DNA of 64,000 bases, from the NCBI RefSeq assembly GCF_014841125.1, contig NZ_JACYTQ010000001.1, forward strand, positions 806,001 through 870,000, written 5' to 3'. Positions 6,507 to 33,252 of the stretch are shown in pieces; positions within the stretch are counted from its first letter, which is position 1, and every line of letters begins with the position of its first letter. A program made the position numbers and the translations under genes. The stretch comes from Echinicola arenosa (GTDB lineage Bacteria > Bacteroidota > Bacteroidia > Cytophagales > Cyclobacteriaceae). The notes below the pieces were generated by a model. That model had not been told where the DNA came from. It searched no databases and saw nothing but the letters and a program-made list of their open reading frames with translations.

Positions 6507-7895
6507 TTACTTTTTAAGCAATTCTAGAAGTTGCCCTTTTAATTCTGGGCTTGAAGGCCTTACCGCGTCTGTGGTAACAATATTTCCGTCCTTATCAAAG
6601 ATCATAAATCTCGGGATTCCCTTGATTCCATAGTTTTTTACCAAGCCCGACTGCCAAGCTTTATCAGCCACCAACTGAACCCCTTTAAGCTCTTTGTCTT
6701 TGACAAATTTTTTCCACTTCTCTTTGTCTTTTTCCGCATCAATGGAGATGCTCAAAAACACAATATCCTCTCCATGTAGCTCCTCTTCCAGCTCTTTTAA
6801 ATAAGGAATTTGCTTGATACATGGTCCACACCAAGTTGCCCAAATGTCCAAATAAACAATCTTTCCTTTAAAAGAATCAAATGAAACCAAATTACCATCA
6901 ATATCCTCGTATTCGAACTGGAACCCAGGCTGTCCTACTTCACTGAACAAGTCTTTTTCTAATTCTACGATAAGTGCTTTGCTCTTCTCTGAAGTCATGT
7001 AAGGTCTCGCGTAAGACATGGCCTTTTCATACTGACCACTTTGGAAACGTGTGGTTGAGAAATAATTTCTGAAATAAACATCCCTAAGTTGTGGGTCTTG
7101 AACTCTTGTCACAATTCGACTCAAGTCATATGGGTCACTAATTCTATCTTGTGGTTCAGAAAGCAAATAATCGTATACAAAAGTATAGCTAGACATGTAA
7201 GATTGCCCATTCCATAGTTTCAAAATATCAGGATTTGTAAACTTCTCTTCCTTTTTCCAGTTTTGATAAAAATCAGGATATTCTTCCTTGGTAGGGTGAT
7301 AGGTTCTGGGAATTCTGAAAAAATTAAATGATTGCTCTTCCACATCAGTTTGTACTGAAAGTTCCATCAATTCATCAAATTTCTCATCACCCGTATTGAT
7401 CTTCTTTTTGAACTCTCCAGCCTTCGCCAACACTTCATCTTCCATCAATGGAAAAAAATCCTTATAACCTTTCATATTACTTCTGTTGTTGATCTCCAAC
7501 ATTTTGGTAACCGTTTCATTCCACTCAGTAACCAATTCATTATGTCCTAAATGATCACCAGCCAGGTCATAGCTTGTCTTATCAATGGTCAAGTCTAATT
7601 CCACTCCATTCTCCAAGTAGAACCTCAACATGTTAGCATTGGCGGTGATGCTGAGGTGATAGAAACCAGCCTCCTCTATGGGAAGAATAAAACCAAACTC
7701 CCCGTTCTCATCCATTTTGGTCATGGAAACGGTTTCAAGTTTTCCTTCTACTACTTTTTGAAGATTAATTTCTTTGAACTTAAGGTCATAATCCACTTTG
7801 CCTTTGATCATGGCGAAGCCCTCTATTTCATTGGACCAAGCAACAGAGCTCGCTATGAAATAAAGGAGGGTGAAAATACAAATCAGTCTTTTCAT
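6507..7895 (-). CDS. TlpA-family thioredoxin with N-terminal DUF4369-like domain (copy A)
   Basis: A 462-residue exported protein and the last gene of cassette A. The signal peptide is about residues 1-20. The N-terminal beta-rich part (about 25-115) resembles the DUF4369/transthyretin-like domain found before TlpA domains in Bacteroidota. A helical middle follows, then the C-terminal AhpC-TSA/TlpA domain with WATWCGPC (Cys356, Cys359) and the cis-proline loop KGIPRFM. It should act as a periplasmic or surface disulfide reductase, with DsbD (encoded downstream) as a plausible electron donor. It lies 34 bases after the protease gene stop. Its paralogue in copy B (19840-21252) has the same layout and a nearly identical thioredoxin domain. 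Substrate unknown. Confidence 0.92.
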   Translation of the reverse strand: MKRLICIFTLLYFIASSVAWSNEIEGFAMIKGKVDYDLKFKEINLQKVVEGKLETVSMTKMDENGEFGFILPIEEAGFYHLSITANANMLRFYLENGVELDLTIDKTSYDLAGDHLGHNELVTEWNETVTKMLEINNRSNMKGYKDFFPLMEDEVLAKAGEFKKKINTGDEKFDELMELSVQTDVEEQSFNFFRIPRTYHPTKEEYPDFYQNWKKEEKFTNPDILKLWNGQSYMSSYTFVYDYLLSEPQDRISDPYDLSRIVTRVQDPQLRDVYFRNYFSTTRFQSGQYEKAMSYARPYMTSEKSKALIVELEKDLFSEVGQPGFQFEYEDIDGNLVSFDSFKGKIVYLDIWATWCGPCIKQIPYLKELEEELHGEDIVFLSISIDAEKDKEKWKKFVKDKELKGVQLVADKAWQSGLVKNYGIKGIPRFMIFDKDGNIVTTDAVRPSSPELKGQLLELLKK

Positions 7896-7929
7896 AAATT
7901 TACTTTTAACAAATTGTTGAATATTCTAT

Positions 7930-9540
7930 TTAGTTGCTGAGAGTTACCTGTCTCATCTGATCTCCTGTAAGAATCCTTAAAAGAAAATCTTGGTCTTTTT
8001 CATTGATCAAATCATTTATATTCTCCACAAGCATTAGTTCATCGGTGGTATAATCATTGATCATCATAATTTTGTACCCCGGCTTGATTCCTTCTGTACT
8101 TGCCATCGTACCGCCGATCACTTGTTTTACTTCCAATTCATTTTGATCATTGAATTGAAGTATCATTCCTGCCAGTACGAAGTCCGTAGGCCTGTCATAA
8201 TTTTCATTAGCCTCCAAATAAAGCTTGTGATGTAAGCGGTCTATGGTCACATTGAACTTTTGGATAAGTTCCAATCCAAAGGAGCCGGCATCACTATTCC
8301 ATTCCCCTTTATCAGGATCATGTGCTTGCAGGGAAACCAATATATTTTGCAATTCAAAATCTCCCAATTTGGCATAATCCATATATCCCATTTTGGTGGG
8401 AGTCGCCATGCCCATGCTGTAATTGGTGGAATAGAACTCAGCCTTAAAGCCCTCTTCTAGATTTTCTTTGCCCACATAAGGTCCAAAAAAGATCATATTA
8501 TAGCCTGCCCCCGTATCAAAAACCATATTAGCGGTAAGCTCTTCAGCCTTATTGGCCAAATGATAATTCACAGGTATCACCGGTAAGCCAGAATTGAAAT
8601 CTACTGGAACCACTTCTACTTCTTTTGAAGGGGTGTAGGAATTAAAATCATACAGTTCGATCACTCCTTTATCAAAATCTATCCGGGTCGTAAAGCTCCG
8701 AAGGATTCCCCCTCCTATCAAACCATCAGCTCTTCCTGCCAAACCTGGAAAGATCACCAAATTTTGATTATCCAAATCAAGGCTATCATTGATATGAACG
8801 GTATTGTTCTTGGAAAACTGCACACTGGTTTTCCCGCCCACCACGGCGGTTTCCCGCTCTTGGGTATTTTTGATACCAATTCTTTGTGAAGCACTTGGGC
8901 TCAATGCCATTCCATCTGCCCCAGTATCAAAGATCATCGTAAGCAAATCAGGGCTGTCATTTAACCTTAGCTTGATAAAAATCTTTCCTTCGGCCAACTC
9001 AAATGGAATGGAAGCTACCAATCCCCTGTCAGTGTAGCGGTCGAGTTTGTAAAGTCGATCAAAAAAGTCAGTATAAATTAATAGGCCATTTTTTTCATAA
9101 GCAAAATTGCCTCGATCTTCTCCACCATCACTATCTTTTAGGATTACCTCCGCCAAAGTGATGTCTTTCCGACTCTCTTTTTTCACAAAAACAATGTCAT
9201 TGATTTTGGGGTACACTTTCACAATACTCTCCAATAGGTAATCGCGAGTATCTCCCCCATACACCCCAATCATAAAATCAGGTGCAATCAAGGCCTTCAT
9301 TGCTTCTATGTCACGCGACTTCATCGCAACTTCAAAGGCCTCCACCGATTTTTTAATTTCTTTTTTACTCTGGGCATTTCCAGAGTATCCAAATTGAAAA
9401 ACACATAAAAAGAGAAAGATAACTCTAGTTAAATTATATTTAAATTTATTGCCTACAATAAATTTCAGTGCATCAATTGGCTTTATATTGGTCGTATTAA
9501 TCATTCTTGCGTTGGTCAACATGGACGTTTGAAAGAGCAT
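7930..9540 (-). CDS. Exported two-DTG aspartyl protease with NTF2-like and PDZ domains (copy A)
   Basis: A 536-residue protein. An NTF2/DUF4440-like segment (about 60-165, with APDFMIGVYGGD) precedes two retropepsin-like lobes. Lobe 1 has Asp205-Thr-Gly in FDTGADGMALS and a matching LIGGGIL; lobe 2 has Asp342-Thr-Gly in FDTGAGYNMIFFG and GSFGLEL. A C-terminal PDZ-like domain (about 455-535) carries GIKPGYKIMMIND. Two DTG motifs in one chain suggest a self-contained, pepsin-like active site. The signal helix (TRVIFLFLCVFQF) begins only at about residue 38, so ATG 9540 gives an unusually long n-region; ATG 9522 and 9504 are alternatives. The copy B paralogue begins directly at its signal peptide. 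The target is unknown; peptides or envelope proteins are inferred from neighbours. Confidence 0.85.
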   Translation of the reverse strand: MLFQTSMLTNARMINTTNIKPIDALKFIVGNKFKYNLTRVIFLFLCVFQFGYSGNAQSKKEIKKSVEAFEVAMKSRDIEAMKALIAPDFMIGVYGGDTRDYLLESIVKVYPKINDIVFVKKESRKDITLAEVILKDSDGGEDRGNFAYEKNGLLIYTDFFDRLYKLDRYTDRGLVASIPFELAEGKIFIKLRLNDSPDLLTMIFDTGADGMALSPSASQRIGIKNTQERETAVVGGKTSVQFSKNNTVHINDSLDLDNQNLVIFPGLAGRADGLIGGGILRSFTTRIDFDKGVIELYDFNSYTPSKEVEVVPVDFNSGLPVIPVNYHLANKAEELTANMVFDTGAGYNMIFFGPYVGKENLEEGFKAEFYSTNYSMGMATPTKMGYMDYAKLGDFELQNILVSLQAHDPDKGEWNSDAGSFGLELIQKFNVTIDRLHHKLYLEANENYDRPTDFVLAGMILQFNDQNELEVKQVIGGTMASTEGIKPGYKIMMINDYTTDELMLVENINDLINEKDQDFLLRILTGDQMRQVTLSN

Positions 9541-9698
9541 TTATTGAAATCTCGATTTACCTTAAACACTTGATTGAATTCCACAAAAAATAAAGGCTAA
9601 ATCGCTTAGCATTTTTATACAGTTTATTTAGAAATGATTTGATCCAATCCGCTGTTTTATCCATCAAAGCAAACTTGGGCCAATAATTCATAATTTAT

Positions 9699-9742
9699 AA
9701 CCAGAAGAAGTTGACACATTAGTAATCCTACTTCTTCTGGTT
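9699..9742. repeat. Perfect 13-bp inverted repeat
   Basis: AACCAGAAGAAGT and ACTTCTTCTGGTT are separated by 18 bases. There is no strong T run next to it, so it may be a structured leader or operator rather than a terminator. Confidence 0.6.
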
Positions 9743-9774
9743 TAATCCTGCTTATATCATTGAAGATTAAAGAA

Positions 9775-9834
9775 AGCCCCTCCTTAGTTCCGCATATGAA
9801 GAAAGAAACTAAAACCATTTTTTACAGAGGGGCT
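9775..9834 (-). terminator. Hairpin directly after PKD-like gene A
   Basis: AGCCCCTC pairs with GAGGGGCT, with an inner TTAGTT/AACTAA pairing and a large loop. It begins 12 bases after the PKD-like stop. Copy B has a hairpin in the same place with a different sequence, so it is probably a terminator or attenuator limiting read-through to the protease genes. Confidence 0.6.
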
Positions 9835-9846
9835 ATTAATCATCTA

Positions 9847-11310
9847 TTACCTTCTTCTAAAAGTAATGCCTGTAATCTTTCCGAAACCTTCCAATTTGGA
9901 GTTAAAGACAATTTGTCCGTTTACAGAAGGCACTTCATAGAATTCCAAACTACCAGTACTTCCTGCTGGCTTGGAAGGGTCATTTACTCCCACAATCAAC
10001 TGGCTACCCACCGGAGAATCAGAGTTAAATTCCATATGGGTGATTTCCCTATCAGCCATGTCCAGCATTTCAATGGCCGTTTTCGTCACTACATCATATT
10101 CATAGACCTTATTGCCAATATTGAAAAACAGGTAGCCATAGTCAGGCTGAATGGCAAAATTCTCTGCCTGCTCAAATCCAGGAACTGAGATCTCCTCAAA
10201 ATAAACCTGCCTGATATTTCTATTCCTTTGAAGCATTTTGGCGATGTGATAAGTCGCTCCATCATTTAAGATCGCAAATGCCTCTCCGTTATTATAGGTG
10301 GTATAGGTCATATACACCAAGTCCATTCCTATATTATAATCAAACAAAGTCGCATTATTAGGCATTGTAGCTGACTCAAGGTTATTAAGGCTAAGGTGCC
10401 TTACAAATCTTTTATTGTCTTCATCAAAAAAGATGGAGTGGCCCGTAGAGTTGGGCTCTGCGGATATATATTCCGATGCGGTAAAGGTTTCTGTTTCTCC
10501 TGTCACCTTGTTGATGGGTGCTCCATAGCTTACTTGGTAAGATCTATAGTAGTAATAGATATTATGATCACTTACCATATAAGCATGGCTCCCTCTCTTT
10601 TGATAAATTCTATCAGCTTTCATCTTTTCAGGAAAATCGGATATACCCTCATAACTCAAGCGTAAATCCTCTGACCAATCAAAACTTTCAGGATCTACCT
10701 TGGTCGTACCCGTTCCCTCGCTAGTTACATATATACCATATAAGGAAGGATCATAACCGTAACAATACACCAAACCTGGTGCTCCTTCTAATTCTAGGCT
10801 AGAACCAGTATATCTCAAAACATCCGGAATCACCATGTACTCTTCATCAATCAAAGATGCCATGTCCAGTCTAGCCTCACCGCCCACATCGCTCATCACT
10901 ATCCAACCTTCATAAACCGCACTTTTGACCTCTACTTTGAAGTCGGTAATGAATTCCACTCCCGAAGTTTTGTCCAACACCCTATAGTAAGCATCATATT
11001 CACCAGGAGGCACTTTCAAATCTACATCCAGGTCTTTCCCATTGCTAAGAATCTCCTTAACCGTAGTAAAAGGTTTAATCAACACCCATTCATACTCATA
11101 GCTTTCCAAATCCCCAGATTCGTCCAAGGTAAAAGCAAGATCAGGCTCGATTTTGAAATTTTCACCTTGATAGGCTACATAACTGCTATCAATTCCTGTG
11201 ACACCTACTTCATTGATGTCCACATACTCATAGTTTCCCAAATCCTCATAACATGATGTGATTAAAATGGGAAGGGCCAATAAGCATAAATATATAATTA
11301 CTCTTTTCAT
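9847..11310 (-). CDS. PKD-like family lipoprotein (copy A)
   Basis: A 487-residue predicted surface lipoprotein, lipobox LITSC (Cys20), followed by YEDLGNYEY, the usual opening of the Bacteroidota PKD-like (PF16407) family encoded behind SusC/SusD/DUF4843 genes. An immunoglobulin-like PKD segment (about 25-130) is followed by a region with repeated Y-x-Y/D strands that looks like a beta-propeller (about 130-480). No catalytic motif is evident, so a substrate-binding role in the SusCD complex is likely. It starts 12 bases after the DUF4843 stop. The copy B paralogue is clearly homologous along its full length. Confidence 0.88.
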   Translation of the reverse strand: MKRVIIYLCLLALPILITSCYEDLGNYEYVDINEVGVTGIDSSYVAYQGENFKIEPDLAFTLDESGDLESYEYEWVLIKPFTTVKEILSNGKDLDVDLKVPPGEYDAYYRVLDKTSGVEFITDFKVEVKSAVYEGWIVMSDVGGEARLDMASLIDEEYMVIPDVLRYTGSSLELEGAPGLVYCYGYDPSLYGIYVTSEGTGTTKVDPESFDWSEDLRLSYEGISDFPEKMKADRIYQKRGSHAYMVSDHNIYYYYRSYQVSYGAPINKVTGETETFTASEYISAEPNSTGHSIFFDEDNKRFVRHLSLNNLESATMPNNATLFDYNIGMDLVYMTYTTYNNGEAFAILNDGATYHIAKMLQRNRNIRQVYFEEISVPGFEQAENFAIQPDYGYLFFNIGNKVYEYDVVTKTAIEMLDMADREITHMEFNSDSPVGSQLIVGVNDPSKPAGSTGSLEFYEVPSVNGQIVFNSKLEGFGKITGITFRRR

Positions 11311-11322
11311 GTTAATTTTCTT

Positions 11323-12078
11323 TTAGATATAAACACCCATTTCCATTTCTGTCCCATCTTCCTCATAGATGGTATTGCCCAAGGCCTTTTGTTGATCTAG
11401 GTATCTCTTCATCACTACACCAAAATATTGACTTTTAGAAAGTGCGACATCACCCGTATAGATCAAAGGGTCAAAGCCCAACACATCTACCATTAAGAAA
11501 AATTTCTTACTAGAAAATTTACCCAAATAAGGTTCAAACCAGTCTTCGGGTTGTTGAAGCACTCCTGAAAGGTAAATATCAAGACCCACATGACTCAGTT
11601 GTTCTTGTCCGTAACGATCTACATAAGTGGTCATTTCACTTTTGAAATGTTCATCTGCAAGCAGCTTCAATTTGATCACGACGGTATCTTCAGCGATTTC
11701 CTCTGTTTTGATCAATCTGATATCAATAGTGGCAGACACTTCTCCTGCTGGAATAACATGCTCGTTTACAAATTCAAAGTCGGTCCCCTCTTGTGCAGTA
11801 GTCCCTTGGCCGAGTTCGACGGTGAAACTTCTGTCTTCATCTGCAACTCTTCCCAATACTTTCACAGGAATACTGATTAAACTATCGGTAAAAGTGGTAG
11901 GGACTAAACCTACTGAATAAAATAAGCTGTCCATATTGGGATTTTGGGAAGTCCCCTCGGTGGACATTGGAAAGTAAATACTGTCCTCATTTTGAAAAGT
12001 ATTTAACTCATCCTCCACACAGCTCCAACACAATACAACCGTTAGTAATAGGAATATATTTAGAATTGATTTTTTCAT
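11323..12078 (-). CDS. DUF4843 lipoprotein (copy A)
   Basis: A 251-residue lipoprotein (lipobox VLCWSC, Cys20). The body fits DUF4843 (PF16132): SIYFPMSTEG near the start, TDSLISIPVKVLG, a Calx-beta-like AQEGTDFEF segment, and a C-terminal part ending EEDGTEMEMGVYI. Such proteins sit between SusD and PKD-like genes in many Bacteroidota uptake loci and are probably accessory surface binding subunits. It lies 15 bases after the SusD stop, in the same operon. No enzymatic motif is seen. Copy B keeps the same length and motifs with more divergence than SusD. Confidence 0.87.
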   Translation of the reverse strand: MKKSILNIFLLLTVVLCWSCVEDELNTFQNEDSIYFPMSTEGTSQNPNMDSLFYSVGLVPTTFTDSLISIPVKVLGRVADEDRSFTVELGQGTTAQEGTDFEFVNEHVIPAGEVSATIDIRLIKTEEIAEDTVVIKLKLLADEHFKSEMTTYVDRYGQEQLSHVGLDIYLSGVLQQPEDWFEPYLGKFSSKKFFLMVDVLGFDPLIYTGDVALSKSQYFGVVMKRYLDQQKALGNTIYEEDGTEMEMGVYI

Positions 12079-12093
12079 TGTTGTTAGGGATTT

Positions 12094-13548
12094 CTAGTTT
12101 CTAAACTCTAATTCTGACAATGGTAATGGAACCACATAGGTACTTTCATCCATGGTCTTGTTGGCCGTATTGGAAGAGCCATTTGGTATGGAACTTAAAT
12201 TGTGTCTCTTGTAATAGAAAAACAATTGGCCTTCTCCAAAGAACTCCTTGCGATACTCCTTCAGAATCTCCTCTTGAATATCCCCCCCTTCGCTTAAGTC
12301 CTGTAATCCCCTATTGTACCTAACGGTATTCAAGTAGGCCAAGGCTTTTCCCGGGTCTGTCTCTGCTAAAGCTTCTGCAGCGATATAATACATCTCTGAC
12401 ATCCTGATCAGTCCAAGCATATATTTGAAGCTTGGTGTTTCATTATTAATTTTCCCTGGCTCCTTGTACTTGTTGAAAGTTTTAAAGGAATGGTTGCTGC
12501 CCAATACCCATGAAGAATTGAAACGGTAGTCATTTTCGTTATCCTCGAAGGTTTGGTCCAGCCTTCTTGGGCGGGCATAAAGGATTTTATTTTCCTGTAA
12601 GTTATTATTGAACAAGCTATTATACCTTCCATACAAACCCATATTGTAAGTACCGAATAGGATCTCGGACGAAAACACCATATCAGGAGCACTAGGAGTA
12701 GACAATACTGCCAAAGGATCCGTCCAAGGGAACCATTTACTGCCATTGTCAATCACCCATTCTGCCGCTTCCAAGGCGGTCTGCTCATTGCCCGCATATT
12801 GGTTAACCCTGGCTTGCAAAGCTTTTACCGCATATAGGTTCAACCTTAAGCTTCTGAACATATAAAAGGTAACAATTCCACCATCCGGATCTGGAAGCAT
12901 CTTGCCATTTTCAAGGATTGGATCGTTTGACAAATAGTTTTCTGCCATTTCCAAATCTGCCAAGACTTTCTCCAAGAATAGACTCCCTCCAATTAGCGGC
13001 GCCGCTTCTTTTTTGACCTCATCATAATAAGGCAACTGGTAATCATCCAGGCTCACACCCGGAATTCCCCCAAACACCCTCAACATATCAAAATGCAACA
13101 TAGCCCTCAAGGCATAACACTCTCCTTTTACCAAATCTTCTTCATCCTGGGGCAAAACTCCCGGATATTGATCCAGGCCATCCAAAAGCACATTGATATT
13201 CAACATGTTCACATAAGCAGCTGTCCACATACTTTCAAACCTGTTCATCACCGGCGTTTCATCGTAGGCGTAGTTCTGGTACAAGTAAAGTGTTTGATCA
13301 CTGCTAGGTTGGTCATAGCGCTGCGCCAGTCCTTCTATTACTCCCAAGGTAAGGTCCTCACCATATAACCGATTGTTATTCAGCTCCAGATAAATTCCAT
13401 TTAGCGCGTTTTGTATCCCTATTTCGGAGGAAAAAACCTGACTTTCCAGGAATTTATCCATGGGTTGTACATCCAAATAACTGTCGCATGAACTGATCAT
13501 CCATACCGCACAAACCCCAAGTATATATTTTATGATTCTTTTTTTCAT
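12094..13548 (-). CDS. SusD/RagB-family surface binding lipoprotein (copy A)
   Basis: A 484-residue lipoprotein (lipobox MISSC) that forms the lid of the SusCD outer-membrane importer. The N-terminus SYLDVQPMDKF, the tetratricopeptide-type helices, the IRMSEMYYIAAEAL segment and the C-terminal LPLSELEFRN are hallmarks of RagB/SusD proteins. At 484 residues it is compact for the family. It starts 12 bases after the SusC stop. By eye roughly four in five residues match the copy B SusD, with no length change, which argues that both copies bind related cargo. The cargo is not known; the RagAB precedent is oligopeptide import. Confidence 0.95.
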   Translation of the reverse strand: MKKRIIKYILGVCAVWMISSCDSYLDVQPMDKFLESQVFSSEIGIQNALNGIYLELNNNRLYGEDLTLGVIEGLAQRYDQPSSDQTLYLYQNYAYDETPVMNRFESMWTAAYVNMLNINVLLDGLDQYPGVLPQDEEDLVKGECYALRAMLHFDMLRVFGGIPGVSLDDYQLPYYDEVKKEAAPLIGGSLFLEKVLADLEMAENYLSNDPILENGKMLPDPDGGIVTFYMFRSLRLNLYAVKALQARVNQYAGNEQTALEAAEWVIDNGSKWFPWTDPLAVLSTPSAPDMVFSSEILFGTYNMGLYGRYNSLFNNNLQENKILYARPRRLDQTFEDNENDYRFNSSWVLGSNHSFKTFNKYKEPGKINNETPSFKYMLGLIRMSEMYYIAAEALAETDPGKALAYLNTVRYNRGLQDLSEGGDIQEEILKEYRKEFFGEGQLFFYYKRHNLSSIPNGSSNTANKTMDESTYVVPLPLSELEFRN

Positions 13549-13560
13549 GATATAACTTAT

Positions 13561-16500
13561 TTAGAAAGTAGCATTAATGGTAAAGGAAACGGTGCGAGCG
13601 AACGGATAGGTTGTTCCACGCTCTACTTGTACCGTAGAGAGCCTGAAGATATCGTTCATGATCGCATTGACCCTCAATCTGCTTAGCCCCATAGTTTTTA
13701 GGAAATGACTATTGGCATTCCATTGGTACCCTAAGGAAATGGACTCACCAGTCAGGCTATTTTCTTCCTGTACAAATCTGGAAGACATAGGAGAATTACC
13801 CGTTAAGCTGATACTTTTAAATTGGCTGATATCACCAGGCTGTTTCCATCGATCGGTAAGCGCTCGTCTATCCTGGTTTAGTAAAATACCATTTCTGGAA
13901 ATGTTCTCTACTTTGTTATACAAGGCACTATTGAACACATCTGCACCTAAACGGTACCTCATGTATACGTTCAGTAACCAGCCCTTATAAGATACATTGG
14001 TACTTAATATTCCTTGAGAGAATGGTTGGGTATTTCCTACCCTTACGATATCTGCAGGATCATACTCAAAAGTACTTTCCCCATTTTGCTTCAAGAATAC
14101 TTCTTTTCCGGTAGCAGGGTCTATTCCTAAAGATTGCACTGCCCAGATATCTGTTGGACTGTATCCATCCCGATACCTTACGAGACTATTGCTTTCCAAT
14201 TCTTCATTATTCAAGCTCGCCAGTTGGTTATCAAATTCGGCATACTTTTGATTGGTAAAGCTTCCCATCCATGCAATCGTCCAAACTACGCTTTCACTTG
14301 GTCTGAAAATTGGAGAATAGCGAATATTGGTTTCAATACCTTTGGCATCCATTTTACCAATATTCATCGGATAACCTTTGATTCCTGTAGAAGCAGGTTG
14401 GTCAATCACAACGATCAAAGGATCGGTGATTTTTTGGTAGGCATTTAAATACCCGGAAAGTCTATTATTGTAAAGACCAAAATCGATCCCTACACTGATG
14501 TTTTGCGTTCTTTGCCATTCCAAATCAGGATTGCCCAAAGAAGTGAGCGAAATGCCCTGACCAAAAATATTTCTATCATTATCAAAACTATATACAGATA
14601 CTGAGGTGATGTTTCCAAAACTTTGATTGCCTGTCACACCAATATTACCTCTCAATCTTAAGGTACTTATCTTCGAATTAGCTTTCAAAGAGGGTTCATT
14701 ATGTAGGTTCCAACCAGCTCCTACCGCCCAGAATGGGGAATAGGGATTGTTCCTTCCAAAAGTGGTGGAGCCATCAATACGGTAGGTAGCGTCAAATAAA
14801 AACCGCTGATCATAGGCATAGTTGGCACTTACCAAACCATTTACCCTTCTAAAATCCCTGTATGCCGCTGATGGGCTGGAATTTGGCTGATAATTAAAAG
14901 CAAAGGCTGGATTGCCCACTGCACCTATAGGGAAACCTACCGCCGTAAATGATTTCCGCTCATTACTTTGGTTTTGAATTTCTACACGACCATTTGCAGT
15001 AATACTATGCTTACCAGTCACTTTGGAATAAATTGCCATCAAATTCCCTCGATAAGTGAAAGACGAACTTTGACTATTATTATACCTGCCTTTCTCTAAA
15101 AAGTCCGTATTATCAAATGTGGTATTCAGCGGGCTGACGAAAGCTTCCGCTTCATCTTTACCTCCCACCAACTGCCCCATAGCTTGCAACCTAAAGCTCG
15201 GGCTAATGTTGTAACGCATCTGAATATTGTTTTGAACCTGTAGGCCTTTGGTCAAGTCAAACTGGTTATCCAAGAGGGCATTGTATAAAGGATTGATTAC
15301 GTTACCAGAAGTAAGTCCTTGGACATTTCCTTCTTCTAAATACCTGTCCACTCCCCCATCTTCATTGTATTTTCTGAAATAAGGATTGGCGTTAACAAAG
15401 TTCGAAAATTCGCCATAAGGTGTTTCCTTAGCTAAAGAACCATTGACAAAAAGCTTGTTGTTGATATTTAACTTTCCCTTTCTATAGATCAAATCGATCG
15501 CTCCTTGCCAGGTTTCACGGCCTGAACCCTTCATCACTCCTTGCACATTTCTGTAATTGGCCGAAACCCCGAAACGCAATTCGTCCGTTCCACCATTGGC
15601 ATAAATGGTGTGGGAATTGGTGAATCCAGTTTGAACCGGTTCTGACAGCCAATACGTATCCACCCCTCTTCTTACTTCTGCCAATCGAAGGCTATAGAGT
15701 TTGTCCAAATTAATGGCCTGTGTAGGATCGGGTGCCCCACCAGAATTGAAGGGGACATATCTTCCAGAAAGTCTTTCAAATTCCAGTTTTTCAGCGGCAT
15801 TCATCATATTATAATCGCTCAAATCTGGTACATCTACTCTGAAATCACCCGTATAGGAAAGTAGGATCTTACCCGCTTCTGGTTTTTTGGTTTCTACTAC
15901 AATCACACCGTTGGCGGCATTTGAGCCATAAAGGGCCGTAGAAGCAGCATCTTTCAAAATGGTAATGGAATTGATTCTATTGACATCCAAATCCACAATT
16001 GTTCTTAGCGTTGTCTCAAAACCATCCAGAATAAATAAGGGCTGGTTTGGATCAGAGCCAAACTCATCACGCAACTCACTGGTTGAAATACTGGTTTTAC
16101 CTCTTACTTCAATGTTAGGAAGCACATTTGGGTTGGAACCCAACTCATTATTTTCCAAAACCGCAATGGAAGGGTCCAAAGACCTGATGGCAGTGATGGC
16201 ATTTCCATTGGAAACCTGCTTAAGGTCATCTGTGTCGAAAGTAGCTGCTGCACCGGTGAAGCTATCCTTTTGTCTTTCAACCACCCCAGTAACCACCACT
16301 TCGTCCAATCCTGTCACACTGACTTTCATAGACACATTGATTTTGGTCTGGTTTCCGACAAGGATTTCTTGTGTTTCATACCCTAGCAAACGGAAAACCA
16401 AAACCGACTCTCCATCCGGGACCAGCAACCTGTATTTACCATCGACATCGGTGACATTGGCCTGAGAGGTACCTTTTAGTTGAACAATCACTCCAGGAAG

Positions 16501-16956: not shown

Positions 16957-16995
16957 AAATTGTTAGTGGAATGTTATTGAACATTTAATTAAACG

Positions 16996-24096: not shown

Positions 24097-24162
24097 AAAG
24101 CCCCTCCCCATAACATCGTCCGTGAAGAAAATGTCAATCAAAAAAATTGGGGAGGGTGCTTT
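24097..24162 (-). terminator. Hairpin directly after PKD-like gene B
   Basis: AAAGCCCCTCCCCA pairs with TGGGGAGGGTGCTTT (one bulged base) across a loop of about 36 bases, 14 bases after the PKD-like stop. Same position as the copy A hairpin; a terminator or attenuator between the SusCD part and the thioredoxin-protease part is likely. Confidence 0.6.
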
Positions 24163-24176
24163 CTAATTACCAATAC

Positions 24177-25682: not shown

Positions 25683-26440
25683 TAAAAGTAAGCACCCATT
25701 TCCATTTCCGTTCCATCTTCCTCATAAACCGTATTCCCTGCAGCTCTTTGAAGATCCAGATACCGCTTCATCGCCTTTCCAAAGTACATCATTTTGGAAA
25801 TTTCAAGACGCCCTTTTGAAAATGTAAGTGGATCTATACCCAAAACTTCATTCATCAACATCAATTTTTTCAAAGAAAACGGTCCCAGAAATGGAGCAAA
25901 CCAATTCTGTGGTTCTGAAACAGTACCAGTCAAGTACAGTTCAAAGTTGACATGGCTTACCTCTATCTCACCAAACTCATTGACATAGTTTTTCATTTCG
26001 GTATTGAAATACTCATTGGGCAGTAAATCAAAACCTATCATCACAGTATCCTCTGCGATATCCGGGGTCTTGAACAACCTGATCTGAATGGCTGATTCCA
26101 CAGCACCAGCGGGAATCACCAATTCATTTTCAATTTTAAAGTTAGTTCCTTCCACCGCTGTGGACTTTTCTGACAATTCCACTGAAAAAGCTCGGTCATA
26201 ATCCTTTTTATTCCCCATAATCTTCACCGGGATGCTGACCAAGGAATCCGTAAAATCAGCAGGCACCAAACCTACTGAATAATATATACTGTCAAAGGGT
26301 ATTGCAGGCTCTTCTTTTTTTGAAAAGGTAAAGTAAATGCTGTCTGTGCTACTGGTATAGGTCATCAACTCATCCTCCACACAGCTCCAGCACATCACTA
26401 TCACTATAAATAGAAATATATTTCGAATTGTATTTTTCAT
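25682..26440 (-). CDS. DUF4843 lipoprotein (copy B)
   Basis: A 252-residue paralogue of 11323-12078 with the same lipobox (MCWSC) and ending (EEDGTEMEMGAYF). The motifs YYSVGLVPADFTDSL and AVEGTNFKIENE match copy A. It follows SusD by 15 bases in the same operon. More diverged from its partner than SusD is, which fits a surface-exposed accessory. Confidence 0.87.
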   Translation of the reverse strand: MKNTIRNIFLFIVIVMCWSCVEDELMTYTSSTDSIYFTFSKKEEPAIPFDSIYYSVGLVPADFTDSLVSIPVKIMGNKKDYDRAFSVELSEKSTAVEGTNFKIENELVIPAGAVESAIQIRLFKTPDIAEDTVMIGFDLLPNEYFNTEMKNYVNEFGEIEVSHVNFELYLTGTVSEPQNWFAPFLGPFSLKKLMLMNEVLGIDPLTFSKGRLEISKMMYFGKAMKRYLDLQRAAGNTVYEEDGTEMEMGAYF

Positions 26441-26455
26441 AGTTGTTAGGGATTT

Positions 26456-27910
26456 CTAGTTTCTAAACTCTAATTCTGATAGTGGTAATGGCACCACGTA
26501 GGTATTTTCTCCCATGGTCATATTCGCTGTATTGGAAGACCCATTGGGTATAGAACTGAAATTGTGCCGCTTATAGTAGAAGAACAGCTGTCCCTCACCG
26601 AAGAACTCTTTCCTATACTCTTTGAGGATCTCTGCATGGAGGTCTACCCCTTCGCCCAAGTCTTGCAACCCACGGTTATACCGTACTGTATTCAAATAGG
26701 TCAAGGCCTTACCTGGATCTGAATCTACTAAAGCTTCAGCTGCGATATAATACATCTCCGACATCCTGATCAGTCCCAGTATAAACTTAAAAGTTGGTGT
26801 CACATTATTGATTTTACCGGGCTCTTTGTACTTGTTGAAAGTCTTGAAAGAATGGTTGCTACTCAATACCCAAGAGGAATTGAAACGGTAATCGTTTTCA
26901 TTGTTTTCAAAGGTTTGATTCAATCTTCTAGGCCTTGCATACAGGATCTTGTTTTCATTTAAACTACTGTTGAAAAGGTTATTATGTCTACCATACAAGC
27001 TCATATTGTAAGTACCAAAAAGGATTTCAGAGGAGAACACCATATCCGGAGCATTTGGAGTAGACAGTATTGCTAAAGGATCTGTCCAAGGGAACCACTT
27101 ACTTCCATTTTCAATCACCCATTCTGCCGCTTCCAGAGCCGCTTGGTCATTGCCTCCATATTGGTTCACCCTGGCCTGCAAAGCTTTCACTGCATATAGG
27201 TTCATCCTAAAGTTTCTGCACATATAGAATGTAACCACACCGTCATCAGGATCTGGAAGCATTTTACCATTTTCTACGATTGGATCGTTCGCCAAAAAGC
27301 TTTCAGCCATTTCCAAATCCTCCAACACCTGATCCAAAAACAGACTACCTGCAATCAGGGGAGCCGCTTCTCTTTTGACTTCATCGTAGTAAGGTAGTTT
27401 ATATTGGTCCATGCTCTCACCAGGAATACCACCAAATAACCTCAACATATCAAAGTGTAAAAAGGCCCTCAAAGCATGGCATTCCCCTCTAATGATTTCT
27501 TCTTCATCCTGCGGCAAAACTCCCGGATATTTATCCAAACCATCCAGCAGTGCATTGATGTTCAAAATATTCACATAAGCTCTGGTCCATACTCCTTCAA
27601 ACCTATTCATTACACTTTCCTCTTTGTAGGAGTAGTTCTGAAAAAAGTAAAGAATATAATCATCATTTGGCTGGTTATACCGTTGAGCCAGTCCTTCCAC
27701 CGCTCCCAAGGTAAGGTCTTCACCATATAACCTGTTGTTATTCAAATCCAGGTAAATTCCATTTAGCGCATTTTGTATCCCTATCTGGGATGAGAACACC
27801 TGGTTTTCCAAGAATTTATCCATGGGCTTTACGTCCAGATAGTCTTCACATGAACTGGTCATCCACACCGCACAAACCCCTAGTATATATTTTATGATTG
27901 TTTTTTTCAT
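26456..27910 (-). CDS. SusD/RagB-family surface binding lipoprotein (copy B)
   Basis: A 484-residue paralogue of 12094-13548, lipobox MTSSC, then EDYLDVKPMDKF. Long stretches are unchanged, for example SSNHSFKTFNKYKEPGKINN and the end VVPLPLSELEFRN. Differences cluster at scattered positions rather than in insertions. It partners the SusC of copy B, 12 bases upstream. Function as in copy A: surface capture of cargo and closure of the SusC channel. Confidence 0.95.
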   Translation of the reverse strand: MKKTIIKYILGVCAVWMTSSCEDYLDVKPMDKFLENQVFSSQIGIQNALNGIYLDLNNNRLYGEDLTLGAVEGLAQRYNQPNDDYILYFFQNYSYKEESVMNRFEGVWTRAYVNILNINALLDGLDKYPGVLPQDEEEIIRGECHALRAFLHFDMLRLFGGIPGESMDQYKLPYYDEVKREAAPLIAGSLFLDQVLEDLEMAESFLANDPIVENGKMLPDPDDGVVTFYMCRNFRMNLYAVKALQARVNQYGGNDQAALEAAEWVIENGSKWFPWTDPLAILSTPNAPDMVFSSEILFGTYNMSLYGRHNNLFNSSLNENKILYARPRRLNQTFENNENDYRFNSSWVLSSNHSFKTFNKYKEPGKINNVTPTFKFILGLIRMSEMYYIAAEALVDSDPGKALTYLNTVRYNRGLQDLGEGVDLHAEILKEYRKEFFGEGQLFFYYKRHNFSSIPNGSSNTANMTMGENTYVVPLPLSELEFRN

Positions 27911-27922
27911 CTTTGTTCGGAT

Positions 27923-30900
27923 TTAGAAAGTAGCGTTTACAGATAAAGAAACCGTTCTTGCAAAAGGATATTGAATCCCACGCTCCACTTGGACAGAGGA
28001 CAACCTGAAAATGTCATTCATCAGCGCGTTTAGTCTTAATCTTTGTAAGCCGATGCTTTTCAAGAAATGACTGTTGGCATTCCATTGGTATCCCACGGAA
28101 ATGGATTCTCCAATCAAACTATTTTCTTCCTGTACAAATCGGGAAGACATATTGGTTTTTTCAGTTAAGCTGATCCCTTTAAACTGACTGATATCACCAG
28201 GTTGTTTCCATCTTTCAGTCAAGGCTCTTTTGTCTTGGTTAAGCGTGATCCCTTGCGCATTTATGTTCTCCACTTTGTTATACACGGCGCTATTAAAGAC
28301 CTCTGCACCGATTCTGTACCTTAGGTAAACATTCATCAACCATCCTTTGTAAGAGAGGTTTGTGCTCAAAACACCTTCTGAAAATGGTCTGGTATTACCT
28401 ACCCGTACGATATCCGCTGGATCATACTCAAAAGTTCTCTCTCCGTTCTTCTTCAAGAAAATTTCTTCGCCCGTGGCTGGGTCAATTCCCAATGACTGGA
28501 CAGCCCAAATATCTGAAGGACTGTACCCATCCTTATAGCGGACCAAGCTATTACTTTCTTGTTCCTCTTCATTTAATTTGCTGAGCTTATCATCGAACTC
28601 ATCATACTGATCCACGATGAAATTACCCATCCATCCGATAGTCCATACTACACCTTGCTGAGGCTTAAAAACAGGAGAATATCTGATATTTGTTTCCACA
28701 CCTCGGGTTTCCAATAGGCCGACATTCAAAGGAAGTCCTACAATTCCAGTAGAGGAGGGTTGATCCAACACCACAATCAACGGATTGGTGATATTCCGAT
28801 AAGCATTGACAAAACCTGAGATTCTGTTTTTCAAGAAACCGAAGTCAATGCCCACGCTGTAATTCTTGGTTCTTTGCCATTCCAAATTTGGATTGCCCAG
28901 GGTAGATAGGGAAGTTCCCTGTCCGAAAATATTGAGATTCTGGAAGTAATCGTAAACCGAAACAGAAGTGATGTTACCAAAGCTCTGATTACCGGTTATC
29001 CCCACGTTCCCCCTCAATCTAAGACTACTCAAAACCGGGCTATTTTTCAAACTTGGTTCATTGTGGAGATTCCAGCCAGCCCCTACCGCCCAAAACGGTG
29101 AGAAGGGATTATTTCTTCCGAATGCCGTAGAGCCATCGATGCGGTAAGTGGCATCGAATAAAAATCGCTGGTCATAGGCATAGTTGACACTGGCCAATCC
29201 ATTTACGCGTCGATAATCTTTATAGGCCGCAGAAGGCTTACTGTTTTCCTGATAGGAAAAAGCAAAAGCAGGGTTTCCGACTGCTCCTATTGGAAAGCCT
29301 GTTGCTACAAAGCTTTTTCTTTCATTCTGTTCATTTTGTATTTCTCCCCTCAGGTTCCCCGTGATGCTGTGCTTCCCAATCACCTTGGAATATACTGCCA
29401 TCACATTTCCTCGATACAAAAACTGAGAAGATTGGCTATTGTTATATCGGCCTCTCTTCAATATATCTACACCATCAAACTCCGTATTCAGTGGATTGGC
29501 AAAAGCCTCGCTTTCGTTTTTAGCTCCCAGAATCTGCGTCATGGCCTGGATTCTAAAAGAAGGGCTGATATTGTACCTTAACTGCAGGTTATTCTGCACA
29601 TTCAGGTTGCGTGTTTCATCATATTGATTCTCCAACAAGGCATTATAAAGTGGATTGGGCACACCCGTTTTAGGATAAACAACCAGTCCACTTACAAGCC
29701 CCTCTTCCAGGTATTTGTCCACCCCACCATCTTCATTGTACTTTCTGAAATATGGGTTTGCATTGACAAACGTAGAGAAATTTCCATAAGGTGACTCAGT
29801 AGCTAAATATCCATTGACAAAAAGCTTGTTGCTGATATTGATTTTTCCTTTTCGGTAATTGATATCCACGGATCCTTGCCAAGTTTCACGTCCTGAGCCT
29901 TTCATCACTCCCTGAACATTTCTGTAATTGGCAGAGACTCCAAAGCGCAATTCATCAGACCCGCCATCTGCATAAAGCGTATGGGAATTGGTGAAGCCTA
30001 CTTGGGTCGGCTCAGAAAGCCAATAAGTATCCACCCCTCTTCTTACTTCGGCAAGCCGCTGATTGTATAACTCATCAAGGGGCAATTGAAATTCAGGGTC
30101 TATTGAGTAATAGTCATACCTTCCAGAAAGTCTTTCAAACTCCAGCTTCTCAGCAGCATTCATCATATTATAAACGCTCAAGTCAGGAGCATTTACACGA
30201 TAATCTCCCGTGTAAGACAGCATGATCTTACCCACTTCCGGTCTTTTGGTTTCGACCACAATGACACCATTGGCCGCTACAGAACCGTAAAGGGCAGTGG
30301 AAGCAGCATCTTTCAGAATAGTGATGGACTTGATCCTATTAATATCCAAATCCACGATAGTCTGTAAAGTAGTTTCAAATCCATCCAGGATAAACAGCGG
30401 CTGGTTGGGATCAGAACCAAATTCATCACGAAGTTCACTGGTAGAAATACTGGTCTTCCCTCTCACCTCGATATTGGGCATGACATTGGGATTGGAACCG
30501 AATTGGTTGTTTTCAAAGATCACTACGGAAGGATCCAATGTTTTCAAAGCCTCTACCGCGTTTCCATTGGTAATTTGCTTTAGGTCAGCGCCAGTAAAAG
30601 AAGAAGCTGCACCTGTAAAGCTCTCCTTGTCCCTTTCTACGACCCCCGTAACGATGAACTCTTCCATCCCCGTTACACTGATCTTTAGCTTTACATTGAT
30701 CTTTTGTTGGTTGCCCACTGGAATTTCTTGGGTTTCAAAGCCCAATAGTCGAAAGACCAAAATGGCATCAGAATCCGGAACCAGCACTTTGTACCTACCA
30801 TCGGCATCCGTCACATTGGCTTGACTGGCACCTTTCAGCTGAACAATTACTCCCGGCAGGGGTTCTCCACCTTCATCGGTTACCACGCCGGAGATTTCTT

Positions 30901-31318
30901 CCATGTCACGACTAAAAATTGTAAGACCGTTTTGGCTCGAAAGTGAAGTTGAGTTTTGTGAATGATTGGTTTTGTGCTTTAGTACAATTGTTTCATCTAT
31001 AATCTCAAAAGTTAAGGGTGTTTGTTTCAGTTGTTTCTCAAGAAGGTCCTCTACCGAGATAACCTCCTCTTTTACGGTCAGGTCTTTGATGGTCCGTACA
31101 TCATTCAGGTTGTAAAAGAATTTGTAGTTCGTTTGTTTCTCGATTTCCCTAATCAGTTTTTTCAATTCTACTTTCTCATAATTCAAATCCTTAAGGGTCT
31201 GAGAAATGGAAGCAGCGGACAAGTTAAAACACAGGGCGAGTGTCAGGATTGCAGTGAGTTTCATGACTTTTGGCCATAAATATCCCCTTAAGAGATATCT
31301 CTTTAAATTTTTCTTCAT
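27923..31318 (-). CDS. SusC/RagA-family TonB-dependent transporter with STN domain (copy B)
   Basis: A 1131-residue paralogue of 13561-16956 with the same domains: STN (LKDLNYEKVELKKLIREIEK), carboxypeptidase-regulatory-like (EEISGVVTDEGGEPLPGV), plug (SDPNQPLFILDGFE, TILKDAASTALYG) and barrel ending SVNATF. The STN domain differs more from copy A than the plug and barrel do, in step with the diverged FecR and sigma proteins. It should import related cargo under separate control. Confidence 0.96.
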   Translation of the reverse strand: MKKNLKRYLLRGYLWPKVMKLTAILTLALCFNLSAASISQTLKDLNYEKVELKKLIREIEKQTNYKFFYNLNDVRTIKDLTVKEEVISVEDLLEKQLKQTPLTFEIIDETIVLKHKTNHSQNSTSLSSQNGLTIFSRDMEEISGVVTDEGGEPLPGVIVQLKGASQANVTDADGRYKVLVPDSDAILVFRLLGFETQEIPVGNQQKINVKLKISVTGMEEFIVTGVVERDKESFTGAASSFTGADLKQITNGNAVEALKTLDPSVVIFENNQFGSNPNVMPNIEVRGKTSISTSELRDEFGSDPNQPLFILDGFETTLQTIVDLDINRIKSITILKDAASTALYGSVAANGVIVVETKRPEVGKIMLSYTGDYRVNAPDLSVYNMMNAAEKLEFERLSGRYDYYSIDPEFQLPLDELYNQRLAEVRRGVDTYWLSEPTQVGFTNSHTLYADGGSDELRFGVSANYRNVQGVMKGSGRETWQGSVDINYRKGKINISNKLFVNGYLATESPYGNFSTFVNANPYFRKYNEDGGVDKYLEEGLVSGLVVYPKTGVPNPLYNALLENQYDETRNLNVQNNLQLRYNISPSFRIQAMTQILGAKNESEAFANPLNTEFDGVDILKRGRYNNSQSSQFLYRGNVMAVYSKVIGKHSITGNLRGEIQNEQNERKSFVATGFPIGAVGNPAFAFSYQENSKPSAAYKDYRRVNGLASVNYAYDQRFLFDATYRIDGSTAFGRNNPFSPFWAVGAGWNLHNEPSLKNSPVLSSLRLRGNVGITGNQSFGNITSVSVYDYFQNLNIFGQGTSLSTLGNPNLEWQRTKNYSVGIDFGFLKNRISGFVNAYRNITNPLIVVLDQPSSTGIVGLPLNVGLLETRGVETNIRYSPVFKPQQGVVWTIGWMGNFIVDQYDEFDDKLSKLNEEEQESNSLVRYKDGYSPSDIWAVQSLGIDPATGEEIFLKKNGERTFEYDPADIVRVGNTRPFSEGVLSTNLSYKGWLMNVYLRYRIGAEVFNSAVYNKVENINAQGITLNQDKRALTERWKQPGDISQFKGISLTEKTNMSSRFVQEENSLIGESISVGYQWNANSHFLKSIGLQRLRLNALMNDIFRLSSVQVERGIQYPFARTVSLSVNATF

Positions 31319-31358
31319 AAATTGTTAGTGGTTTGTTGAACTGTTGTTTGACATTTCA

Positions 31359-31388
31359 GGGTGGAGATTGTTGCCGCAATCGACACCC
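31359..31388 (-). promoter_or_regulatory. Conserved hairpin between fecR and susC (copy B)
   Basis: Same 30-base structure as at 16996-17025: GGGTG..GATTG paired with CAATC..CACCC, changed only in the bulge and loop. It starts 5 bases after the FecR stop. Confidence 0.65.
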
Positions 31389-31393
31389 TTTTT

Positions 31394-32545
31394 TTACTTC
31401 ACGATCAAGGTTTTTCCATTCTTTTCTATTTTTATGTGATTCGTATGTTCTATTATTTTTAACACGGGGTCTAATTCCTCGTATTTGTTAATGTACCCTT
31501 CAAAGCGTTGATCCCTTAGTTCTGGGCGGTCGTATACAACTTCAAACTCATACCACCTGGAGAGGTCCTTCAAAATATCCTCTAAGGTGGCATCCTCAAA
31601 AAAGTAGAATCCTTCCACCCATGAGGTAGCGCGCTTGGCGTCTACTTCTGAGACATCAAATGAGCCTATTGATTTATCCAAAACCACCTTGTGGTCTGGG
31701 GTTAGCAATGCTTGCTCTACTCCCCTTTCATCCACAATTTTCACTTTTCCTTCCACCAAAACCGTCTCAGCAAATCCCTCATCCTCATATGACCTTACAC
31801 TAAAGGAGGTTCCCAAAACCTGGACTTTCATACCATCCACCGTCACATAGAAGGGACGAGAGGCATCATGACTCACTTTAAAAAAAGCCTCTCCAGAAAG
31901 CTCAACCATCCGTTCCTTTTTATCAAAAGCGATAGGAAAGGTCATTTTGGTTAGCGGATTAAGGTACACTTCTGTTCCATCAGAGAGCTTTAACCCAAAC
32001 TCCTTTCCTATTGAAGTTTCCACAGTGTTAAAAACCTTTTCTTTATTATCACTGTAATCATCTGTATAAACCAGCTTATCCGACTCTTTAGACAGCACCC
32101 CCCCTTCAAGTGCGGCTATATTATCAAGCTCTTCCAAGTTTACCTTCTCTCCATTGCTCAGGGTCAACATGGCCCCATTGCTTCCCGGGCTTATGACTTC
32201 ATCGGCATCGGGACGAAGTAATGAAAAGAGGACAATACCTACAGCCAAGGGAATCAATAGAACAGCCGCCCATTTAACCCACTGGGATTTCGGGGACTTC
32301 GTTGACTTCCTGCTGCGAGCGTAGGCTTCCAATCTTTCCCACCCATTTTGCTGGTTGATTGCCAACTGCTCTCTTTCCAAGAGTTCCTCGACAGACTTTT
32401 CCTGAAGCTTTGCATATAAGATCCTGTTCTCTTCAGATTTTTTAAGCCAATCTTCCAAAAACAAAAGCTCTTTATCATTGGGCTTATTGTTATTACCTAA
32501 CTTATGTTTGAGGACAATACGAGCCACCTCGAAAAGTTCCTTCAT
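31394..32545 (-). CDS. FecR-family anti-sigma factor (copy B)
   Basis: A 383-residue membrane anti-sigma factor. The transmembrane helix is WAAVLLIPLAVGIVLFSL (about 90-107). The FecR domain contains SIGKEFGLKLSDGTEVYLN and VQVLGTSFSVRSY; the C-terminal domain contains WVEGFYFFEDATLEDIL. The N-terminal sigma-binding part is poorly conserved with copy A, consistent with a private sigma-anti-sigma pair that avoids cross-talk. It lies 140 bases after the sigma gene. Confidence 0.94.
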   Translation of the reverse strand: MKELFEVARIVLKHKLGNNNKPNDKELLFLEDWLKKSEENRILYAKLQEKSVEELLEREQLAINQQNGWERLEAYARSRKSTKSPKSQWVKWAAVLLIPLAVGIVLFSLLRPDADEVISPGSNGAMLTLSNGEKVNLEELDNIAALEGGVLSKESDKLVYTDDYSDNKEKVFNTVETSIGKEFGLKLSDGTEVYLNPLTKMTFPIAFDKKERMVELSGEAFFKVSHDASRPFYVTVDGMKVQVLGTSFSVRSYEDEGFAETVLVEGKVKIVDERGVEQALLTPDHKVVLDKSIGSFDVSEVDAKRATSWVEGFYFFEDATLEDILKDLSRWYEFEVVYDRPELRDQRFEGYINKYEELDPVLKIIEHTNHIKIEKNGKTLIVK

Positions 32546-32685
32546 AGTTTTGCTTTATTTTGTATATAAAACAAGTAACCAAAAAAAACGGGTGACCAAA
32601 TTGTTAAAAAAGTTTTAAAAAAATGTGATTATTTGATTTTGCAGTATCTTACGCAAGCTCATAACTTCATTTCAACACACTTCCA

Positions 32686-33252
32686 TCAGCTTACCACTTG
32701 ATTCATCACTATTGCCAAAAACCAGATCAGCATGTCAGATCGAATAGCCTTATAAGCACTCTTTTTTAATGTTTTCACGGTATTCAAAGAAATCCCAAGC
32801 TGATCTGCTATTTCTTGGTTCTTCATGCCTTTAAGGTTAAGCCGGACGATTTTCTGGGATTGTTCTGGGAGCTTTTCTATGGATTTGTATAATGCCCTAT
32901 ACATTTCTTCCTCCACTACATTTTCTTCAAAAAATTGCTGGGAAAACAAATAATCTCCTTCTAGAATCCGCTTTCTATTTGAGCTTACACTCAAGAGATT
33001 GATGCATTTATTTTTCGTCACCGTGTAGAGAAAACTCTTCACCGTTGGTAAAGACTGAAACTCTTCCCTTTTGTCCCATAAGACCATAAATGTCTCCTGT
33101 ACTACGTCCTCAGCATCATCTTTATCCCCTAGGTATTTATGGGCAAAGTGACAAAGTCCACTGTAATACCTATCAAAAATCTCCCGGTAAGCAGATACGA
33201 TTCCACCCCTTAGTTTTTCAATTATTTCAATATCGTCGAAATTTACCCGCAA
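32686..33252 (-). CDS. ECF RNA polymerase sigma factor (copy B)
   Basis: A 188-residue ECF sigma factor; region 2 FAHKYLGDKDDAEDVVQETF, region 4 LPEQSQKIVRLNLKG then LNTVKTLKKSAY. About half the residues match copy A by eye. TTG at 33252 is the only usable start: no ATG occurs between the upstream in-frame stop and region 2, and the codon aligns with the TTG of copy A. Predicted to switch on cassette B. Confidence 0.93.
   Translation of the reverse strand: MRVNFDDIEIIEKLRGGIVSAYREIFDRYYSGLCHFAHKYLGDKDDAEDVVQETFMVLWDKREEFQSLPTVKSFLYTVTKNKCINLLSVSSNRKRILEGDYLFSQQFFEENVVEEEMYRALYKSIEKLPEQSQKIVRLNLKGMKNQEIADQLGISLNTVKTLKKSAYKAIRSDMLIWFLAIVMNQVVS

Follow-up and report, generated by a model that had tools for sequence, protein, structure and literature searches.

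How do two neighbouring copies of an import operon come to differ at nearly every gene while one gene stays alike? The question is raised by a 64,000-nt stretch of Echinicola arenosa DNA (contig NZ_JACYTQ010000001.1, positions 806,001 to 870,000; hereafter the window), whose minus strand carries two tandem operons, A (6507-19207) and B (19840-33252). Each encodes, in the same order, an extracytoplasmic function (ECF) sigma factor, FecR, SusC, SusD, a DUF4843 protein, a PKD_2 protein, an aspartyl protease and a TlpA-like protein (Table 1). As members of their families, SusC and SusD are expected to form a TonB-driven importer, and tandem SusCD operons are not rare in themselves. As a joint explanation, in which we are fairly confident, an ECF sigma/FecR-controlled SusCD operon would have undergone a tandem duplication that predates the ancestor of E. 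arenosa and of a relative (genome G008), followed by recurrent conversion of susD between the copies and by replacement of array alleles; the operons would import peptides with a shared SusD.

An old local duplication

The ends of the open reading frames (ORFs) and the Pfam assignments agree exactly with a preliminary description of this DNA, which had reported two tandem copies with the same families, order and orientation. The equal lengths that it stressed are real for both SusC (1131 amino acids, aa) and SusD (484 aa); the SusD alignment is gap-free, and equal length masks 8 gap columns in SusC. Protein identity, compared for each gene pair as had been proposed, runs from 48% for FecR to 82% for SusD, with 53% for sigma, 74% for SusC, 56% for DUF4843, 62% for PKD_2, 55% for the aspartyl protease and 64% for TlpA. 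Between copies A and B of the window, synonymous sites are saturated in all genes but susD.

Among 11 genomes of the genus, PKD_2 genes occur only in E. arenosa and G008, two in each, and these are the only two array-bearing genomes found. A search of the E. arenosa genome (E up to 0.001) recovered no PKD_2 gene beyond the array's two, which leaves no large family in that genome from which such an arrangement could be drawn by chance. The G008 array lies at the same site, next to the same cysteine-synthase-like and DsbD-like genes, whose products are 97-99% identical, and A matches A and B matches B in every gene except susD.

We placed the copies in trees of susC, susD, PKD_2, fecR and sigma, built by a quick method without bootstrap from 25 rows each that we chose from 39-42 sequences, with long branches elsewhere in the trees. 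The A and B copies of both genomes form one clade in all five (97-100 in the Shimodaira-Hasegawa-like approximate likelihood ratio test, SH-aLRT), and A copies pair and B copies pair in four of the five, susD excepted (support 85-100). Because the A and B copies of both genomes fall in one clade, the SusC/SusD phylogeny that the preliminary description had called for supports a local duplication that took place before E. arenosa and G008 diverged.

The patchy occurrence of the operon (2 of 11 genus genomes, 12 of 295 family genomes) and the presence of related operons in other families would also suit two related operons that were acquired independently and came to lie side by side by chance. 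We regard this as highly unlikely. A and B join each other before any other sampled locus in all five gene trees, and the grouping of each copy with different, unrelated loci, which had been named as the mark of independent acquisition, was not seen in any of them. Beyond the two genomes the nearest SusD shares 48% identity, whereas A and B share 82%, and no closer relative was found in 395 genomes of the class (E up to 1e-70) or 390 of the family (E up to 1e-60).

That a complete system was duplicated together with its own regulation stands in so far as both copies encode sigma and FecR and belong to one clade. Copy B, however, carries one more gene, for a 401-aa thioredoxin-fold protein, which lies between PKD_2 and the protease; at that point A has a gap of 306 nt. 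A relative of this gene occurs in 15 of 34 related regions, and G008 copy A is also without it; its loss from A before the species split would be the simpler reading.

Homogenization of susD

In G008 the two susD copies are 97% identical overall (39 differences; 91-99% per 150-nt block), and elsewhere in the cassette most blocks show 55-80% identity between copies, with extremes of 41 and 87%. The proportion of differing synonymous sites (pS) in susD is 0.10 inside G008, 0.64 inside the window and 0.74-0.85 between the genomes; the other seven genes are, between copies, saturated or have more than two synonymous substitutions per site (dS >2). Third-position identity between susD A and B reaches 0.94 in G008 and 0.59 (0.55-0.63) in the window, compared with 0.35-0.48 for the other genes over both genomes and 0.35-0.46 for those of the window.

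Site patterns over the four copies tell the same story. We called a site concerted where the window pair agree against the G008 pair, and paralog-specific where the A copies agree against the B copies. susD has 173 concerted and 6 paralog-specific sites, while the paralog-specific/concerted counts are 110/6 for sigma, 223/21 for fecR, 325/77 for susC, 93/19 for DUF4843, 176/30 for PKD_2, 261/22 for the protease and 153/26 for TlpA. So many sites common to the window pair would be unexpected had G008 alone converted, and the window lineage was therefore probably homogenized as well, earlier. The susD dS of 0.11 in G008 is below the 0.18-0.20 of two left-edge genes between the species, so that, if rates are similar, the G008 exchange would postdate the species split. 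Its alike tract starts at susD nt 11 and ends at about nt 80 of the DUF4843 gene (edges placed by eye on the alignment); within it a patch at nt 1334-1361 still differs and contains three of the six paralog-specific sites, which is what patchy conversion should leave behind. Only susD, with some 80 nt of the next gene in G008, is kept alike within each genome, and these patterns suggest that it has been repeatedly gene-converted between the direct repeats. Since susD appears homogenized, the copies do not evolve independently, judged from their sequences.

Several observations weigh against this account. In the window itself the susD signal is older and less strong (dS 1.47), with a blurred tract. 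A permutation segment test gave p = 0.0002, the floor of the test, for the G008 pair (13791-12028, a segment that extends into the susC 3' end) and for the window pair (13428-12619); the same p was returned for orthologous pairs (A-A 9414-8987 and B-B 18432-16710), so that on its own the test reveals that similarity is uneven but does not demonstrate conversion. In Aestuariibaculum sp. M13 and G1112, the only other tandem lineage examined, susD tracks its own copy and is not homogenized.

Could stronger purifying selection account for the likeness? Constraint at the protein level is plausible for a lid that fits its barrel. We find this explanation barely credible, however, in view of the raised third-position identity of susD relative to every other gene in both genomes, and because SusD is usually less conserved than SusC: susC is the more similar of the two in 675 of 814 other sequence pairs (172 of the 225 with susC above 45%), pairs that are not independent. 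The excess of susD over susC similarity is at most 5.6 points in other pairs, against 8.3 for window A/B and 23.5 for G008 A/B.

A third strain could instead have donated one foreign susD to both copies, without copying between A and B, and some 150-nt blocks of G008 susD are indeed just 63-65% identical to those of the window, under most A-A blocks. This is improbable in our judgement, as the same foreign gene must enter both copies and a patch with A/B-specific bases persists inside G008 susD; even if true, the homogenized outcome would be the same.

Concerted evolution by gene conversion in prokaryotes, with paralogs more alike within than between species, synonymous sites included, is treated in the sections of PMC6053082 consulted. 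The susD paralogs resemble the cases in those sections in being closer within than between genomes at synonymous sites, and differ from them in that one gene of a duplicated 13-kb operon is affected and its neighbours are not. The words SusD, SusC, TonB and Bacteroidetes are absent from the main text of that paper, and searches of open-licence papers turned up none on concerted evolution of SusD or on this cassette; portions of PMC10434189, PMC7618045 and PMC9723704 served as general background only.

Conversion between A and B remains our preferred reading, and a single importer part kept alike amid saturated neighbours is a natural experiment on which part must stay common. The operons have diverged to synonymous saturation with gene order and regulatory genes kept. 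The common SusD would reflect two SusC barrels that accept one class of cargo or are able to use one lid, while sigma, FecR and SusC would keep the two circuits distinct. We tentatively propose that SusD is an exchangeable common lid, maintained by conversion, for two diverged SusC proteins with separate circuits, and that receptor and regulation diversify while entire two-operon alleles pass between species at one fixed position. Besides a shared lid or cargo, it is equally possible that the most alike stretch converts most easily and that conversion elsewhere is purged by selection. The array makes lid exchange between SusC partners directly testable.

Operons with the SusCD-DUF4843-PKD_2 core occur in other Bacteroidota, and the core order is alike in most related loci fetched; there they are usually single, M13 and G1112 being tandem. 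Two of the sampled genomes, G1314 and G715, seem to be the same one, and a single representative was retained. In one single-copy locus (L042, genome G1308a), sigma and FecR group with copy 1 of the M13/G1112 tandem pair and SusC, SusD and PKD_2 with copy 2, as if a tandem pair had recombined into one hybrid copy.

Divergence of the array between the two species

We compared the window with G008 over 220 kb; reciprocal best hits gave partners for 128 of 144 ORFs, susD B being among those left unpaired. The left flank is about 94% identical between the genomes, and the median pS of the 62 genes left of the array is 0.21 (maximum 0.33). In all 16 array genes compared (8 of A and 8 of B) pS lies between 0.52 and 0.74, and it jumps from 0.18 to 0.67 across the 42-nt gap between the cysteine-synthase-like gene and copy A TlpA. 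It is therefore unlikely that the array pair just descended vertically together with the DNA on either side. In the simplest account, one or both lineages acquired a diverged two-operon array by homologous recombination in flanking DNA, with replacement of the resident alleles.

Very fast evolution in place, with no allele replacement, is the alternative. Surface importers can be under diversifying selection, and the G+C content at third positions (GC3) of the array is ordinary (0.414, against 0.404 in flanking genes), with no sign of foreign composition. The excess, however, is at synonymous sites and steps up over 42 nt, which makes this explanation very doubtful. It counts against a special history of the array that pS exceeds 0.5 in 16 of 112 flanking genes, many in other sigma/fecR/susC loci to the right, and that the right flank as a whole is more diverged than the left; since high divergence is common to these other loci, replacement is not special to the array. 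The sharp divergence steps suggest deeply diverged SusCD alleles in the genus, which matters for how SusCD evolution is read. The parts of PMC11817032 consulted discuss how ragAB types are exchanged among strains and among species.

In window numbering, stretches with sigma, fecR or susC genes and high synonymous divergence from G008 lie at 39056-44344 and, beyond the right end, at 66884-80554 and 118056-123335, while many of their neighbours are not so strongly diverged.

Predicted regulation

In both copies an ECF sigma gene (TIGR02985) is followed on one strand by fecR, with a FecR_C domain, and susC. This resembles FecI/FecR/TonB-receptor signalling, in which an ECF sigma factor, a FecR with FecR_C and, here, a SusC/RagA receptor stand side by side; it differs in that two parallel circuits are present with promoter-like sites and sigma C-terminal helices that are alike. 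An occupied SusC would signal via FecR and release sigma, which would read TCACCC-N16/17-GTTTTA sites upstream of fecR (N16 in A, N17 in B).

The N16 pattern matches twice in the E. arenosa genome, each time inside the array, and four times in the remaining 10 genus genomes, once each in four of them, the G008 match lying in its array; the B site, with its 17-nt spacer, lies outside this search. A backward-pattern control gave 9 matches in the 11 genomes, none in E. arenosa or G008. With a background near one per genome, the case for a putative promoter comes from the position of the site. The second array match, between the copies (19752), is not conserved in G008, and we did not rely on it. 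Of 26 residues in the C-terminal helices that we take to be promoter-reading, 19 are common to the two sigma factors, and this likeness makes cross-activation between the A and B circuits plausible.

Upstream of fecR in related loci we saw, by eye, promoter-like starts of the CCACCC type and of an AAGGGTA/CGTC type, the latter mostly with divergent sigma.

Predicted cargo

SusC A matches TIGR04056 at 543 bits (cut-off 368; copy A was the SusC run against NCBIfam), plug, barrel and CarbopepD_reg domains are present in SusC of both copies, and the adjoining SusD has PF14322 and PF07980 above cut-off in A and B. Sequence searches of the PDB returned generic SusC/SusD chains for the other copy A proteins, with RagA chains among the ten hits of SusC A, and no match (E up to 0.01) for PKD_2 A or DUF4843 A. 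A structure model of PKD_2 A (pLDDT 87.7) is all-beta and nearest to BT1487 (4r5o; query TM-score 0.45), which gives no substrate clue; from strand pattern and fold hits we read an Ig/PKD-like N-terminal and a propeller-like C-terminal part.

What the operons import is suggested by gene content, and peptides are the cargo towards which we lean slightly. Both operons encode a protease and thioredoxin-like or thioredoxin-fold proteins; an M16 peptidase lies beside related operons in all three tested, and DsbD-like genes occur in 8 of 34 related regions. The cysteine-synthase-like/DsbD-like stretch has a full DNA match only in the two array-bearing genomes; the other nine match partially, at 65-73% in the dsbD part, in a DNA search that could miss diverged relatives. 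The function is probably import and reductive proteolysis of peptides. SusC with its SusD lid, aided in capture by DUF4843 and PKD_2 surface lipoproteins, would import peptides, DsbD would feed the thioredoxin-like proteins that reduce disulfides, and the aspartyl protease would cut the cargo. RagAB of Porphyromonas gingivalis, a SusCD-type peptide importer, is likewise a SusC/SusD-type pair; the present locus differs in its two tandem operons with sigma/FecR, DUF4843, PKD_2, protease and TlpA genes, and in the homogenization of susD alone.

Glycans, the cargo suggested by the adjoining fucosidase/GH2 SusCD locus (33492-44344), are the less probable but still sizeable alternative. SusCD systems are known mostly as glycan importers, and a fucosidase-like gene lies near 6 of 14 related loci of the same order. 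Against glycans, domain annotation found no glycosidase, lyase or sulfatase inside either copy, which carry protease and thioredoxin-fold proteins instead, and the genes beside related operons include the M16 peptidase and DsbD-like genes. Besides the fucosidase-like neighbours, a further point tells against peptides: the aspartyl protease occurs in just 5 of 34 related regions and so is not a core part of the operon.

The fecR-susC hairpin

The preliminary description had also taken a hairpin between fecR and susC as a sign that the duplication extends to non-coding DNA. The hairpin folds in both copies, but it is not diagnostic, and we rejected it as evidence of duplication: the same motif occurs in unrelated fecR-susC junctions, and other gaps are about as structured. 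Among 39 fecR-susC gaps that we folded, the majority form a hairpin; none was seen in, for example, the window's third SusCD locus, G1152a and G656. A model made from 16 hand-picked, hand-trimmed gaps shows changes on both sides in 9 of 11 pairs and no G-U pair in the training sequences, and four of five covariation measures exceed shuffles; the measure of further pair types does not. It has 78 matches in the 11 genus genomes, opposite strand included. Loci were returned for 30 of these: 22 fall in fecR-susC gaps, or 18 of 26 once the four array hairpins are taken out, and 8 fall elsewhere, two of the 8 being strong (L079, L093). From 47 FecR_C matches in the E. arenosa genome we set aside 12 in long SusC-like frames; 5 of 32 other fecR junctions match the model (E up to 1, sense strand).

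Hairpins in gaps are common in this genome, and fecR-susC gaps stand out little by folding energy: z is -2 or lower in 21 of 31 such gaps and in 19 of 31 control gaps (15 of 25 after removal of six fecR-susC gaps from the control list). After this control we dropped a generic claim of a junction hairpin and kept the specific motif, which belongs to the junction and not to this duplication. The covarying motif, with a semi-conserved loop, is found between fecR and susC in many unrelated SusC loci of the genus (L069-L098) and in related operons in the family of Aestuariibaculum. No Rfam family matched at gathering score in the window or in L004, and seven matches far below gathering fall at 16900-17100; the hairpin could be an mRNA element not yet catalogued, or a dyad in the DNA. 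Repression of susC by FopS small RNAs is described in the parts of PMC11697453 consulted.

Annotated features and neighbouring genes

Table 1. Features of the two operons and linked neighbours, in window coordinates.
Feature	Copy	Coordinates	Strand	Basis
DsbD-like gene, linked neighbour		3218-5377	-	Pfam
Cysteine-synthase-like PLP enzyme, linked neighbour		5382-6464	-	below curated NCBIfam cut-offs
TlpA-like (DUF4369 + redoxin)	A	6507-7895	-	Pfam
Retropepsin-like aspartyl protease	A	7930-9540	-	Pfam
PKD_2 lipoprotein	A	9847-11310	-	Pfam, structure model
DUF4843 lipoprotein	A	11323-12078	-	Pfam
SusD	A	12094-13548	-	Pfam
Best-scoring alike segment between the window's susD copies	A	12619-13428	-	permutation segment test
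SusC/RagA-family TonB-linked barrel	A	13561-16956	-	Pfam, NCBIfam
fecR-susC hairpin	A	16993-17029	-	folding, covariation model
FecR anti-sigma	A	17033-18193	-	Pfam
Promoter-like site TCACCC-N16-GTTTTA upstream of fecR	A	18245-18272	-	pattern search
ECF sigma factor	A	18653-19207	-	Pfam, NCBIfam
Third promoter-like site	between copies	19725-19752	-	pattern search; not conserved in G008
TlpA-like	B	19840-21252	-	Pfam
Aspartyl protease (+ PDZ match under its curated cut-off)	B	21259-22776	-	Pfam
Thioredoxin-fold protein, 401 aa	B only	22773-23978	-	
PKD_2 lipoprotein	B	24177-25682	-	Pfam
DUF4843 lipoprotein	B	25682-26440	-	Pfam
SusD	B	26456-27910	-	Pfam
Partner of alike segment	B	26981-27790	-	position carried over from copy A; susD aligns gap-free
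SusC	B	27923-31318	-	Pfam
fecR-susC hairpin	B	31356-31392	-	folding, covariation model
FecR anti-sigma	B	31394-32545	-	Pfam
Promoter-like site TCACCC-N17-GTTTTA upstream of fecR	B	32567-32595	-	pattern search
ECF sigma factor	B	32686-33252	-	Pfam, NCBIfam

In G008 a sulfatase-domain sequence lies between the fucosidase and copy B (L021 4804-6000, L003 1-1179); in the window the corresponding place, ahead of copy B, is a gap of 239 nt. Outside the window, at 94807-103725 in its numbering, a 2972-aa ORF contains many repeats of about 255 nt that align off-register between the two genomes.

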